Made by a program: the position numbers and the translations under genes
Shown: piece by piece, positions 15,014 through 18,372 of the stretch
How positions within the stretch are numbered: position 1 is the first letter of the stretch
Layout of the letters: every line of letters begins with the position of its first letter
From: a virus
DNA length: 21,517 bases
Strand: one strand, 5' to 3'
Virus record (IMG/VR): IMGVR_UViG_3300046028_002315
Location: 1 to 21,517 of that record
Notes under the pieces: model-generated
Databases searched by the model: none
Seen by the model: the letters and a program-made list of their open reading frames with translations, nothing else
Told to the model about the DNA's origin: nothing

Positions 15014-15318
15014 CGGTTCTTCGTGCCGAACATTCCGCCCATACCGCCACCTGTGCGAATTTTGATTACTCTTTTTGACTTGCCCCTTAGTGTGTCTCCG
15101 TCATTTTTGGCTTTTACTGCTTTAGCCTCTTGACGAGCAGCATTACCACTTGCTGCTTGTTCAGTCTTCCAAGTTTGATACTTGTTGTACTCTTTTTGTG
15201 GCTGAGTTTTCTTAGCAACTTCAGGACGCACTCTTACATTGCTACGAGGGCTAGCGCTCTTCTTGACTTTCTCTGAAGTTTTGCCTTTAGGCTTTGCGGG
15301 TGCTTTCTTCTTTGCCAT
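15010..15318 (-). CDS. Lys-rich basic protein, 102 aa
   Basis: A longer frame exists to 15447 inside the terminase gene, but the ATG at 15318 overlaps the terminase stop as TAATG and begins MAKKKAPAKPKGKTSEKVKK, so I chose it. The first 45 residues are Lys/Ala/Pro/Ser-rich; the middle is a charged helix (QKEYNKYQTWKTEQAA), and the end is Gly/Arg-rich (KRVIKIRTGGGMGGMFG). Highly basic overall. It may contact DNA during packaging, given its place between terminase and portal, but this is inference. Confidence 0.7.
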   Translation of the reverse strand: MAKKKAPAKPKGKTSEKVKKSASPRSNVRVRPEVAKKTQPQKEYNKYQTWKTEQAASGNAARQEAKAVKAKNDGDTLRGKSKRVIKIRTGGGMGGMFGTKNR

Positions 15319-17177
15319 TACACAAACGTCCTGTTCTGTTCTGCTAATAGAGTGTCGATGTTGACAACCATACGTTTTCTTTGTTCTGAACGTGATAAGA
15401 ATGGGTTTTTCATATGGTGGGTCTGGTGTAAACCTTGGTTGAGCCACTCACGTGCTCTGATCTCACAGAACCAGAGGGCCATCACCATATCTGTCTTGCC
15501 CTTAGTCGTCGGAGACCAGGTAATAAGTTGCTCCATTAACGCTTTGATATTCTCTGTTTGATCCGAAGGAAGATGGATAAGATTATCTCGATGGTGTTTA
15601 CCATCAGGCTGCTTCGTTCCAAACAAAGTGGACATACTGGCAACTCCGAATCCTGAGTCCCATTTGTTATTTCCTGTGTGGTGTTCACGCAAAATCACAC
15701 CTTTGGTAGCAAGGAAGGATCTAATTCCCTCATCTTGGGTAAGGAAGGACTGAAAAGCATTACGTTCAACAATCCATTCGGCAGGATTGTAAAGATTAGT
15801 CCAATCGAGTATAAGCGTCCTGATTTGAGCAGGGGTAGGACGCGATATCTTAGTAGCGTCAACAATGTACCTTTTATGAGAGTGACGATCAACTGCGTAA
15901 CATACCGCTGCTGTATCTCCGACCATAGCTGGGTCGAGGCCACAGACGAAACTAAAACCCGTGAGGTCTTTGGGGTGACCAGGATTGCCAGGTACCAGAC
16001 GTCCTGCTTTTCGCATTCCATCAATAGAACCTTTCACACATACTTGGTCAAAGATGGCATCATCAGAAACATCCTGCTGTTGGTAAATTAAAGCCCAAGT
16101 ACTTGCATCCATTGCTTGACGTTCGTTGTATAAATGCGGTCCGTACCAGCGGGGATATAATCCCTCTTCTGTCTTATGGTCTTCAGTCTGACCATCAAAG
16201 GGTTGATCTGAATAAGGCCAGAGCGTAACCCACTTCTCTGGGTCTTCATCTGTCTCAAGTAGAGCTGGCATAGCCAGATATGTCCACGGGACCAAGCCAC
16301 CTGGATATCTGTCAGGGTTTCGTAGTTCTTTGTATAAATCTACTGAAGCAACGCGGGTACCGATTACTACCAACTTACCCGTCGGGTTAAGACGGGAGCG
16401 TACATCTTGGGTGAGCCAGCGAATCTGCTTCTCAAACTCATTAGCGTTCTTTAAGGTAACAGCATCATCTACGATGATCATATCGGCACGCTTACCGTAA
16501 ATCTGACCGCCGATACCTACGGCTTCAATGTTGGGGTCTTTTTCGCTAGACTCACGGAGTTCATCTCCAAAGACTACGCGGGTGGCTTGCCACGATGCAG
16601 ACTTAGAGTTAAAGCCGACGCCTGCGGCGTAAGCGCTCTGCAGGTCTTCATACATCGGATGAGTAAGTCTTTGCTTGATGGCGTAGAGGAAGTCTGCTGC
16701 AAGCTGTTGAGTCTGAGAGACTATCAAAACTCTAAAGTTAGGGTTGGAGGCTACCTTCCAAGTCACATAGTCCACAGTGATGGTGATGGACTTGGCGTGG
16801 TTCGGTGGGATGTTAATAAGGATACGGTTATCAGCGGTACCCTTCTCGTACTTCATAGAGGGGTGGTGCCAAGAAGGGGCTTTAGCCTCTATCACATCCA
16901 CCAGGTTCTGCTGGTGGGCAAAGGTCTTCTGGTGGAGATAGCGCTGGCGAAAGCCAGCAAAGTCTAATTCGTGTGCTTCAGTATCTGCAAAGTTCTTGGA
17001 ACGTAGGCCTAGCCTCGTTCTATCCATCTTATCTTTGAAGCCAGGATCTGTACGGCGGTAGTACTCGTAGGACTTCATAGAACGTCCTGCGGAGGCTACC
17101 GCTTGTTCTACAGTCATTCCTTCAGCTACTGCTGTAAGGATGACCCGCTTTGCAATCTCAGCGGTATTCTCAGCCAC
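15318..17177 (-). CDS. terL: Terminase large subunit (packaging ATPase/nuclease), 619 aa
   Basis: Motor that pumps DNA into the prohead and cuts it. Motifs, numbered from a GTG start at 17177: Walker A PPNHAKS at 124-130, Walker B MIIVDD at 233-238, coupling motif VVIGTR near 270-275. RNase-H-like nuclease residues are in GLDPAM (D415), IVERNAF (E471) and TDMVMALW (D563). Residues 1-70 look like an HTH (VEQAVASAGRSMKSYEYYRR), as if small-subunit function were fused; no separate small subunit is seen in the window. The frame also has a GTG at 17213, but only 17177 has a ribosome site (GGGAG, spacing about 7). Confidence 0.93.
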   Translation of the reverse strand: MAENTAEIAKRVILTAVAEGMTVEQAVASAGRSMKSYEYYRRTDPGFKDKMDRTRLGLRSKNFADTEAHELDFAGFRQRYLHQKTFAHQQNLVDVIEAKAPSWHHPSMKYEKGTADNRILINIPPNHAKSITITVDYVTWKVASNPNFRVLIVSQTQQLAADFLYAIKQRLTHPMYEDLQSAYAAGVGFNSKSASWQATRVVFGDELRESSEKDPNIEAVGIGGQIYGKRADMIIVDDAVTLKNANEFEKQIRWLTQDVRSRLNPTGKLVVIGTRVASVDLYKELRNPDRYPGGLVPWTYLAMPALLETDEDPEKWVTLWPYSDQPFDGQTEDHKTEEGLYPRWYGPHLYNERQAMDASTWALIYQQQDVSDDAIFDQVCVKGSIDGMRKAGRLVPGNPGHPKDLTGFSFVCGLDPAMVGDTAAVCYAVDRHSHKRYIVDATKISRPTPAQIRTLILDWTNLYNPAEWIVERNAFQSFLTQDEGIRSFLATKGVILREHHTGNNKWDSGFGVASMSTLFGTKQPDGKHHRDNLIHLPSDQTENIKALMEQLITWSPTTKGKTDMVMALWFCEIRAREWLNQGLHQTHHMKNPFLSRSEQRKRMVVNIDTLLAEQNRTFV

Positions 17178-17183
17178 AGTAAC

Positions 17184-17198
17184 TCTCCCATCGGGAGA
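17184..17198 (-). promoter_or_regulatory. Hairpin covering the terminase ribosome site
   Basis: Perfect inverted repeat TCTCCC-GAT-GGGAGA. The right arm is the ribosome-binding sequence for the GTG at 17177, six bases away. If the mRNA folds this way the site would be hidden, which could hold down terminase translation. If the true start is 17213 the repeat is merely coding. Confidence 0.4.
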
Positions 17199-17222
17199 TA
17201 GATTTATCCCCACTAAAATGTA

Positions 17223-17251
17223 GCGCCGCTTGCGCTACGCTATCGCGGCGC
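17223..17251. repeat. Inverted repeat GCGCCGC / GCGGCGC
   Basis: Arms at 17223-17229 and 17245-17251, 15-base loop. In the late transcript it would lie just before the terminase start. A second long-range pair links CGCTACGC (17233-17240) with GCGTAGCG (17316-17323), so alternative folds are possible. Confidence 0.6.
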
Positions 17252-17256
17252 AGGCT

Positions 17257-17285
17257 CTCGCGTTCAGCCTACAGGCCAACGCGAG
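17257..17285. repeat. Strong 12-bp hairpin
   Basis: CTCGCGTT (17257-17264) pairs with AACGCGAG (17278-17285), and inside it GCCT (17267-17270) pairs with AGGC (17273-17276) around a 2-base loop. It is the most stable-looking fold in the leader of the late operon. No T-tract follows on either strand, so it is not a typical terminator. Confidence 0.65.
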
Positions 17286-17346
17286 GTAGGTCTGCTTCCC
17301 CCTACACCCTAAAGGGCGTAGCGTGAGCGCAGCCCACTGAACGGTC

Positions 17347-17375
17347 GCAAATGCTGGACTGGTGGTCGCATTTGC
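17347..17375. repeat. Inverted repeat GCAAATGC / GCATTTGC
   Basis: Arms at 17347-17354 and 17368-17375, 13-base loop. It lies at the predicted start of the leftward late transcript (about 17376), so it could be an operator or a 5' end stem-loop protecting the mRNA. Confidence 0.55.
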
Positions 17376-17382
17376 TCCCTAC

Positions 17383-17410
17383 TGTATATTAGGCGGGAAA
17401 AAAAAGTCAT
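17383..17410 (-). promoter_or_regulatory. Candidate leftward (late) promoter
   Basis: On the minus strand, ATGACT (17410-17405), a 16-base spacer, then TATACA (17388-17383); each box matches 4 of 6 consensus bases. A perfect inverted repeat GCGGGAAA/TTTCCCGC (17393-17400 with 17410-17417) covers the spacer and -35 box, as an operator might. It would give a leader of about 160-200 bases before terminase. Confidence 0.4.
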
Positions 17411-17441
17411 TTCCCGCATAATGGCAAAAAATCTTTATAGA

Positions 17442-17457
17442 TGTGACTAACGTCACA
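17442..17457. promoter_or_regulatory. Perfect CRP/GlxR-type palindrome
   Basis: TGTGAC-TAAC-GTCACA fits TGTGA-N6-TCACA exactly, the consensus of CRP-family regulators, including actinobacterial GlxR/Crp. It lies 10 bases upstream of a TATAAT box, centred near -30 from the expected start. That position overlaps the -35 region and would favour repression of the rightward promoter or a role in the leftward direction. Confidence 0.55.
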
Positions 17458-17473
17458 GATATAGCGGTATAAT
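17443..17473 (+). promoter_or_regulatory. Candidate rightward promoter with TATAAT box
   Basis: TATAAT at 17468-17473 is a perfect -10 box. The best -35 is GTGACT (17443-17448, 4 of 6) with a long 19-base spacer, inside the CRP-type palindrome. Two copies of AATACGGAC (17471-17479 and 17480-17488) follow and overlap the likely start point near 17480. Confidence 0.45.
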
Positions 17474-17479
17474 ACGGAC

Positions 17480-17581
17480 AATACGGACGAAGCAAAAGGG
17501 ATCGACTTTAGTCGAGAAATTTTGTGAGGGAGTACAGTATACGCCGCCGCGCAATTCAACACCCCCGCGTCGTCGTTTTTT
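17480..17581 (+). ncRNA. Candidate small RNA, about 100 nt
   Basis: Bounded by the TATAAT promoter on the left and a hairpin plus six T on the right. It contains a short internal hairpin TCGACT-TT-AGTCGA (17502-17515) and no good start codon with a ribosome site. The only open frame (GTG at 17524) lacks such a site and runs past the terminator. Existence of the RNA is inferred from these signals only. Confidence 0.4.
17541..17581 (+). terminator. Candidate rho-independent terminator
   Basis: ACGCCGCCGCG (17541-17551) pairs with CGCGTCGTCGT (17566-17576) with two C/T mismatches, followed directly by TTTTTT (17576-17581). GC-rich stem plus T-run on the plus strand fits intrinsic termination. 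The 14-base loop and mismatches lower confidence. Confidence 0.5.
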
Positions 17582-17595
17582 GCTGTGCCTATCTC

Positions 17596-17651
17596 GTCTC
17601 ACATAGTGAGACTGTGGATAAAGATGTGGATAACTTTCATAATAAAGTTAT
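17596..17651. other. Candidate replication origin: two DnaA boxes and AT-rich inverted repeats
   Basis: Two perfect DnaA boxes in the same orientation, TGTGGATAA at 17613-17621 and 17625-17633 (reverse of TTATCCACA), 12 bp apart. To the left lies a perfect hairpin GTCTCAC-ATA-GTGAGAC (17596-17612). To the right lies ATAACTTT/AAAGTTAT (17630-17637 with 17644-17651) in an AT-rich stretch, a likely unwinding site. A near-match TTATCCCCA is at 17204-17212. Use as an origin, through host DnaA, is inference. Confidence 0.55.
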
Positions 17652-17724
17652 GGGCGTGCTACCCCCTCGGCACTCTCGCGCCTCGTAATAATTCTCTGCC
17701 GATAGATAATAAACCGCTGCAGCT

Positions 17725-17743
17725 CTGGACCGATACGGTCCAG
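17725..17743. repeat. Perfect inverted repeat CTGGACCG-ATA-CGGTCCAG
   Basis: Eight-base arms with a 3-base centre, between the DnaA boxes and the rightward promoter. It may be a protein-binding site or hairpin. No T-tract follows. Confidence 0.6.
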
Positions 17744-17818
17744 CTCAACCCGTCTCACTGGTCCGCGCCACTATCTCAACCCGCCGCTGATAGTTGAAAG
17801 TTCAACTAAGTCTCAACC
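17744..17818. repeat. Three CTCAACC repeats and a TAGTTGAA/TTCAACTA palindrome
   Basis: CTCAACC occurs at 17744-17750, 17775-17781 and 17812-17818 in the same orientation. Between the last two lies a perfect palindrome TAGTTGAA-AG-TTCAACTA (17791-17808) whose right arm shares TCAAC with the repeats. They could be iterons for a phage initiator or repressor sites. Confidence 0.4.
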
Positions 17819-17884
17819 TATCCTCGAGACTTTCGACCCGTCTAGATATGTCCAGTCATAACCGACACGCCGCAGCTTTACTTG

Positions 17885-17912
17885 TTGACACTTACCCTAA
17901 CTATGGTAATCT
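17885..17912 (+). promoter_or_regulatory. Rightward promoter P1
   Basis: Perfect TTGACA (17885-17890), 16-base spacer, TAATCT (17907-17912, of the TAnnnT type used by actinobacteria). The spacer holds TTACCCTAA and, with GGTAA at 17905-17909, an imperfect dyad. The same spacer motif recurs in P2. The predicted start near 17919 gives a 45-base leader to the first gene. Confidence 0.65.
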
Positions 17913-17920
17913 TCTCTTAC

Positions 17921-17938
17921 TAGCTAGATTAGCTAGAT
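17921..17938 (+). repeat. Tandem TAGCTAGAT repeat in the P1 leader
   Basis: Two exact 9-base copies side by side, starting at about +1 of P1. GCTAGATT also occurs downstream of P2 at 18382-18389. It may be a binding site for a regulator of initial transcription. Confidence 0.5.
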
Positions 17939-17963
17939 GAACTTACTAGAAGGGTAAACTAGA

Positions 17964-18335: not shown

Positions 18336-18372
18336 TGGACTATTACCCTAAGAATGGTAGACTTAGGGTAAT
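18336..18372 (+). promoter_or_regulatory. Rightward promoter P2 with 10-bp operator-like palindrome
   Basis: TGGACT (18336-18341), 16-base spacer, TAGACT (18358-18363). The spacer matches that of P1 at 13 of 16 positions, including TTACCCTAA and ATGG. In addition ATTACCCTAA (18342-18351) and TTAGGGTAAT (18363-18372) form a perfect inverted repeat across the -10 box, a typical repressor position. Confidence 0.6.

Follow-up and report, generated by a model that had tools for sequence, protein, structure and literature searches.

A probable host-DnaA site, possibly a control element, in the terL/early intergenic region of a lytic-type freshwater actinophage

It is commonly assumed that the host has no say in when a lytic phage replicates. 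What, then, is the role of two perfect tandem DnaA boxes in the non-coding region that separates the terminase gene terL from the early genes of an apparently lytic phage? The boxes, a hairpin and an AT-rich palindrome lie side by side in a linear IMG/VR virus record of 21,517 bases, the whole of which is here called the window (Table 1). A preliminary description had taken this ensemble for a likely phage origin that looks like a miniature bacterial origin. On the sequence evidence given below, we consider it highly probable that the pair is a real site for host DnaA, whatever its function.

Table 1. Features of the terL/early region of the window.
Feature	Position	Strand	Remark
terL (terminase large subunit)	15318..17213	-	phrog_38, E 3.1e-63; 45% identity to terL of Planktophila phage E7
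Divergent non-coding control region, 750 bp	17214..17963		from terL (- strand) to the first + strand ORF; ORF map
Palindrome TGTGACTAACGTCACA (TGTGAn6TCACA), CRP/GlxR-type	17442..17457		perfect; recurs in relatives
Inverted repeat GTCTCAC-ATA-GTGAGAC (hairpin)	17596..17612		perfect 7-bp arms, 3-base loop; abuts box 1
DnaA box 1, TGTGGATAA	17613..17621	+	perfect TTATCCACA on the - strand
DnaA box 2, TGTGGATAA	17625..17633	+	3-bp spacer AGA after box 1
AT-rich inverted repeat ATAACTTT-n6-AAAGTTAT	17630..17651		first four bases are the end of box 2
Candidate early promoter TTGACA-16-TAATCT	17885..17912	+	read from the letters; missed by the consensus scan
First early-side ORF, 62 aa	17964..18152	+	function not assigned

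terL is the first late gene and adjoins the control region, with the structural genes further beyond it; the genes to the right of the intergenic stretch are on the + strand. The control region would be 36 bases longer if terL started at a GTG near 17177, which aligns with the MAENSADIAKR of its relatives. By TerL (45%) and major capsid protein (50%), the nearest named phages are LanE43AprE7 and F5 (OX376640, OX376641; E7 and F5 below), and Streptomyces phages come next for TerL (ca. 42%). E7 and F5 are described as lytic isolates on 'Ca. Planktophila', with a GC content of 46.5% for the host of E7, and a whiB-like gene is stated for all members of their family (PMC10202952, in the part cited here). 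The gene order is common to the long relatives compared, E7 included. Based on the homologous TerL, capsid protein and gene order, we assign the window to the E7/F5 family of Planktophila phages (Caudoviricetes).

A near relative (G001, 40,088 bp, comprising loci L202 and L203) codes for a DnaB-like helicase, a DnaG-type primase and a RecB/Cas4-like exonuclease. Neither a DNA polymerase nor an integrase was found among the G001 ORFs scanned, which included part of the small ORFs only, and no integrase was found in the subset of ORFs scanned in the window and its relatives. A TerL relative was found in none of 84,980 GTDB species genomes, and thus no prophage stage is seen; prophage or host assignment through TerL failed for the same reason. 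The lytic look of the phage, which had been remarked upon from the start, is thus retained, and we regard the virus as a lytic-type freshwater actinophage, as judged from the ORFs scanned, which bear no signs of lysogeny. A phage-encoded DnaA was rejected after no match to the DnaA C-terminal domain (PF08299) was found in 12 relative records.

Single boxes are weak evidence, because the three copies of TTATNCACA in the whole window were reached by 4 of 100 whole-window shuffles. Chance does not account for the two perfect copies of TTATCCACA within the 750-bp stretch, since none of 20,000 dinucleotide shuffles of it held two. The two consensus 9-mers with a start-to-start distance of 12 bp, as initially described, are thereby confirmed. 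The AT-rich inverted repeat and the flanking hairpin are present as well, but they are unremarkable alone, because 15 inverted repeats occur in 851 bases. The hairpin is conserved in the nearest relatives (L002-L004) but not further out. The AT-rich repeat has conserved arms and a variable loop in these three loci and is missing from wider relatives. Their spacer is AGC instead of the AGA of the window, with identical boxes. Within the intergenic region, the AT content peaks (0.77) in 30-mers that start at 17617-17622 and cover box 2 and the palindrome. A BLAST search of the box region against phages returned weak short matches only, with a lowest E of 0.1.

The boxes are strongly enriched among relatives. 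From 599 TerL relatives, 80 were taken, and 66 of these were left after removal of short or near-identical upstream regions. Of these 66, 18 have a perfect TTATCCACA in the 1.2 kb that precede terL, and 15 have at least two, which was the case for none in any of 200 shuffle sets. In total, the 66 upstream regions hold 36 boxes compared to a shuffle mean of 0.37. Elsewhere in the same loci there are 4 perfect boxes in 511 kb, and the reversed 9-mer occurs in a single upstream region (1/66). Most loci have perfect boxes or none, even when one mismatch is allowed, with few near-misses in box-less loci. The arrangement varies more than the boxes do: the spacer is 11 bp in L063 and 3 bp in L066 with unaltered boxes, L007 and L010 have inverted pairs, L038 and L045 have triples, and arrays of four sites, spaced by exactly 12 bp, are seen in L010 and L013, with one mismatch in two or three sites of each array. 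The boxes are thus under selection.

They have also been gained or lost repeatedly. On a TerL tree with 61 scored rows (20 with at least two boxes, 3 with one, and 38 without), the box label changes at least 12 times, and 8 of the changes are forced by well-supported branches. The scoring excluded twelve box-less rows whose upstream DNA was short, and eight loci (L018, L021, L022, L025, L027, L028, L029, L032) were left out because at the query start their frame runs for 8 codons before a stop. Six of these eight have upstream DNA that is long enough but no perfect box, so that loci without boxes are more likely under- than overcounted. Loci with near-identical TerL can differ: L034 and L036 have boxes while L037 has none, its slot being occupied by a 10-bp G-rich repeat. 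E7 and F5 resemble the window in TerL, capsid and gene order, but their terL/early intergenic regions are free of DnaA boxes, and E7 has none genome-wide. Since both have been cultured with their host, a box-less control exists and the question is testable.

The position of the pair within the region was assigned by eye. It is in the middle of the region in the window and in 15 other loci, near the early promoter in 7, and directly before the late operon in 9. In these nine, the pair is found 9-11 nt before the start codon (the perfect box of L077 at 21 nt), with a Shine-Dalgarno-like AGGAG or AGGGAG in between; the start codon is that of a 51-aa ORF preceding terL in L116 and L126 and that of terL in the others. 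Because five of the nine (L116, L126, L152, L166, L194) were retrieved by the twin-box pattern, it is their position that counts and not the presence of boxes. As far as can be read from the letters, the layout is what an operator would look like. Among at least 120 viral contigs with the twin-box pattern, 87 pairs are outside ORFs of at least 100 aa (30.5% for random positions), and no DnaA signature is found at the loci of these 87 pairs among the matches listed. In another viral group (L135:1995-2462, L141:5616-6083, L163, L174, L180), the twin box precedes by 7 nt a frame of 149-157 aa that starts with GTG. As boxes also occur inside other ORFs there, this may be a repeat of coding sequence.

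The same unit occurs in bacteria. The exact twin unit TGTGGATAAN3TGTGGATAA is present at no fewer than 118 GTDB loci, and 20 of those listed are within 2.5 kb of a DnaA signature; counted by site, this applies to 29 of 138 among the GTDB matches listed. In a sample of 296 genomes from Actinomycetes, 13 have the twin unit, which adjoins a DnaA signature in 8 of them. In small low-GC Actinomycetes (1.3-1.5 Mb, GC 0.43-0.48), the unit is just upstream of dnaA in five of the six genomes inspected, at a distance of 2-44 nt from the dnaA start depending on ORF choice, and downstream of dnaA in the sixth. Size and GC fit 'Ca. Nanopelagicales' (compare the 46.5% GC of the E7 host), and the putative acI identity of these genomes is based on these two values.

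Taken together, the boxes, their enrichment, the repeated gain and loss, the three alternative positions and the occurrence of the same unit before host dnaA lead us to favour a control element over a stand-alone origin, as a tentative reading that we rate slightly below even. Host DnaA would bind the tandem pair in the terL/early control region and, once bound, would control transcription across it, in one direction or the other. This would be modelled on the dnaA leader of small low-GC actinobacteria, whose dnaA gene is presumably controlled by its own product through the same 12-bp twin unit; DnaA is reported to regulate dnaA transcription (PMC8203912, in the part cited here). The perfect tandem unit is common to both, and the nine relatives likewise have it directly before a Shine-Dalgarno sequence and a start codon. 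The two differ in that the window pair is in mid-region, without a clear operator position, and in that the boxes of the nine late-operon loci are oriented opposite to those preceding host dnaA; for the phages, moreover, we infer the regulation. The mid-region position and the orientation count against the control reading, and the three differing positions also fit a position-indifferent role, such as an origin or a DnaA sink.

Confidence is further restrained by the distance between the pair and the promoter candidates of the window. A promoter consensus scan of the region returned one promoter-like site only, fewer than in shuffles. The nearest TATAAT-like motif is at 17468, ca. 140 bp from the pair, and the candidate early promoter is ca. 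250 bp away. If a DnaA-responsive control element is indeed present, phages of one of the most abundant freshwater bacterial groups would listen to DnaA, or exploit it. The significance rests on a host-initiator site that was gained or lost many times in one family, at three places, and in the arrangement of a host dnaA leader.

The initial proposal of a phage origin is retained only in part. The boxes are genuine, they are located in a putative control region, and the arrangement is dnaA/oriC-like, as at 20 of the at least 118 bacterial loci. The comparison with a miniature bacterial origin is not upheld, for want of DnaA-trios in 26 phage pairs, because of box-less close relatives and, as a weak argument, because the AT-rich side is opposite to that in E. 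coli oriC. An origin or origin accessory is nevertheless the strongest competitor of the control element, although we rate it as rather unlikely. Host DnaA on the pair would open the AT-rich palindrome, or would help to load the phage DnaB-like helicase and primase, as it does beside plasmid iterons. Host factors would be needed, because the G001 ORFs scanned included a helicase and a primase but no recognised DNA polymerase, and the 12 relatives gave no match to the C-terminal domain of DnaA. The pair is confined to one intergenic region, at varied places within it, and lies next to the 30 bp with the highest AT content. Direct repeats of 10 bp take up the same place in 11 of 50 slots without boxes (compared to 1 of 54 downstream flanks and none of 63 stretches preceding the slot), in line with origin repeats that are interchangeable.

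In addition, tandem consensus boxes up to 3 bp apart are the published basal unwinding arrangement (BUS) of bacterial origins (PMC8287927, in the part cited), and the window has tandem consensus 9-mers with a 3-bp spacer next to an AT-rich stretch. BUS elements, according to the same part and to that of PMC6669920, require DnaA-trios on one side of the tandem boxes. We looked for at least three trios within 16 bp on the unwinding side, as set by E. coli R1 and by the host trios. None of 26 phage pairs has three NAN triplets there; the longest run in the window is 1, while three are found on the opposite side. In contrast, TAGTAGTAG (TAG-repeat) runs are present at four of the six host loci searched, mostly beside a box-like sequence. 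The 0.77 AT over 30 bp adjoins the pair but spans box 2 and the non-unwinding side. The AT-rich 13-mers of E. coli oriC are 5' of TGTGGATAA (R1), whereas the palindrome of the window is 3'. This argument is weak and the AT-rich side was rejected as a discriminator, because the bacterial twin-box loci show no side preference (AT content 0.625 on one side and 0.610 on the other for the at least 118 loci listed). The 5'-side AT values of L061, L064 and L069 were disregarded as an artefact of a very short flank.

Further points speak against an origin. Box reversal inactivates the B. subtilis element (PMC6669920, part cited). Closely related phages without boxes share the helicase and primase of box carriers and have no box cluster elsewhere, except in G010, where two sites with one mismatch each are separated by 40 bp. 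The GC skew, which had been suggested as a check, changes sign with gene strand in 11 of 11 contigs, box-bearing and box-less alike. It shows no switch beyond this and was therefore discarded as an origin test. For phage P1, mutation of both DnaA sites in the predicted origin of lytic replication is reported to have no significant effect (PMC9948254, part cited). A self-sufficient DnaA origin is thus unlikely, given the missing trios, the box-less kin and the dispensable P1 sites. The pair may still assist an origin located in this intergenic region. Two distant relatives, L184 (TerL 47%) and L104 (38%), each have three perfect boxes, together with near-misses, in the matching interval ca. 480 bp upstream of terL. 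Boxes being denser there, these two are better origin candidates than the window.

We consider it improbable that the boxes are a DnaA sink, in which amplified phage DNA would soak up free DnaA and stop host initiation. High-affinity consensus sites, at least two per genome, indifferent to position and optional between relatives, are what a sink would look like, but most carriers have two boxes only, and these are always in one intergenic region, whereas a sink could lie anywhere. With similarly small odds, the control element might be a timer based on copy number. Lytic actinophages would have repeatedly captured the twin-box operator of the host dnaA leader and put it before their own late (or early) units; DnaA would repress after entry, and replication would multiply the boxes, titrate DnaA and release the gene. 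If so, late expression would follow replication without a phage-encoded late regulator, and the phage would read the host DnaA level at infection.

Least probable of all is that the 9-mers serve another phage or host protein as binding sites, or have arisen as a by-product while repeats turned over in a hypervariable slot: significant direct repeats of any period (shuffle p<=0.05) occur in 19 of 50 box-less slots and 17 of 54 downstream flanks, and AGGCAGGAA (19 loci) and GCAGTAAGC (14) pair more often in these regions than TTATCCACA (13), but it is the exact DnaA consensus that is found again and again, in either orientation, with several spacings and at three positions, with few one-mismatch near-misses in box-less loci and with the same twin unit at dnaA in bacteria. 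An alternative iteron in every slot was rejected on the same slot count (20 of 50 with another random seed), which the flank nearly equals; the idea was retained for the G-rich 10-bp unit, with its 11 of 50 slots. In eight box-less loci (L017, L027, L030, L031, L037, L043, L056, L065), three to four G-rich 10-bp repeats (GTGGGGAATA, TGGGGAAAGA) follow a hairpin at the place of the boxes. Possibly these are G-quadruplex-forming or alternative iterons.

In the open-licence literature, we found no report of DnaA boxes in actinophages of this kind. For named phages with DnaA boxes at the origin, the directly relevant literature that we found, each source in part, concerns P1 (PMC9948254), CtrA (PMC9437464) and PseuGes_254 (PMC11512268) only. 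In P1, two DnaA sites and AT-rich DNA are likewise found at the proposed lytic origin (PMC9948254, part cited), but these sites are inside repL, RepL is the initiator and the sites are dispensable. No Rep-type initiator was matched among the ORFs scanned here, the small ORFs being outside that scan. Alphaproteobacterial phages with CtrA sites ('lytic deferment') resemble the window in having clustered non-coding sites for a host cell-cycle regulator. They differ in that this regulator is CtrA, not DnaA, and the part of PMC9437464 cited here gives no positional asymmetry of DnaA sites in these phages. Control by host CtrA appears to be the closest published concept that we found.

The control region contains further motifs. 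The palindrome TGTGACTAACGTCACA, presumably a CRP/GlxR-type motif, recurs in this type ca. 205-255 bp from terL in many relatives, and also in L184, E7 and F5, which suggests host CRP-type control of the terL/early intergenic region. A TTACC-n8-GGTAA inverted repeat (17892-17909) is inside the spacer of the candidate early promoter. A second one of this type is found in an early promoter-like sequence at ca. 18345-18361 and recurs in relatives (L007, TTACCGTAGCTGACGGTAA); these repeats may be the operator of a phage repressor. A cytosine-C5 methyltransferase in two pieces is encoded in the early region of G001 (L202:1505-2711), G002 and G005. Among the long contigs compared, it was present in 3 of 3 with boxes and 0 of 7 without, but a tie between the boxes and this enzyme was rejected because the box-less L025, L046 and L050 carry a methyltransferase, too. 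Finally, an inverted repeat TAGTTGAA AG TTCAACTA at 17791-17808 resembles TTGAAnnTTCAA elements in L006, L040, L065, E7 and F5.
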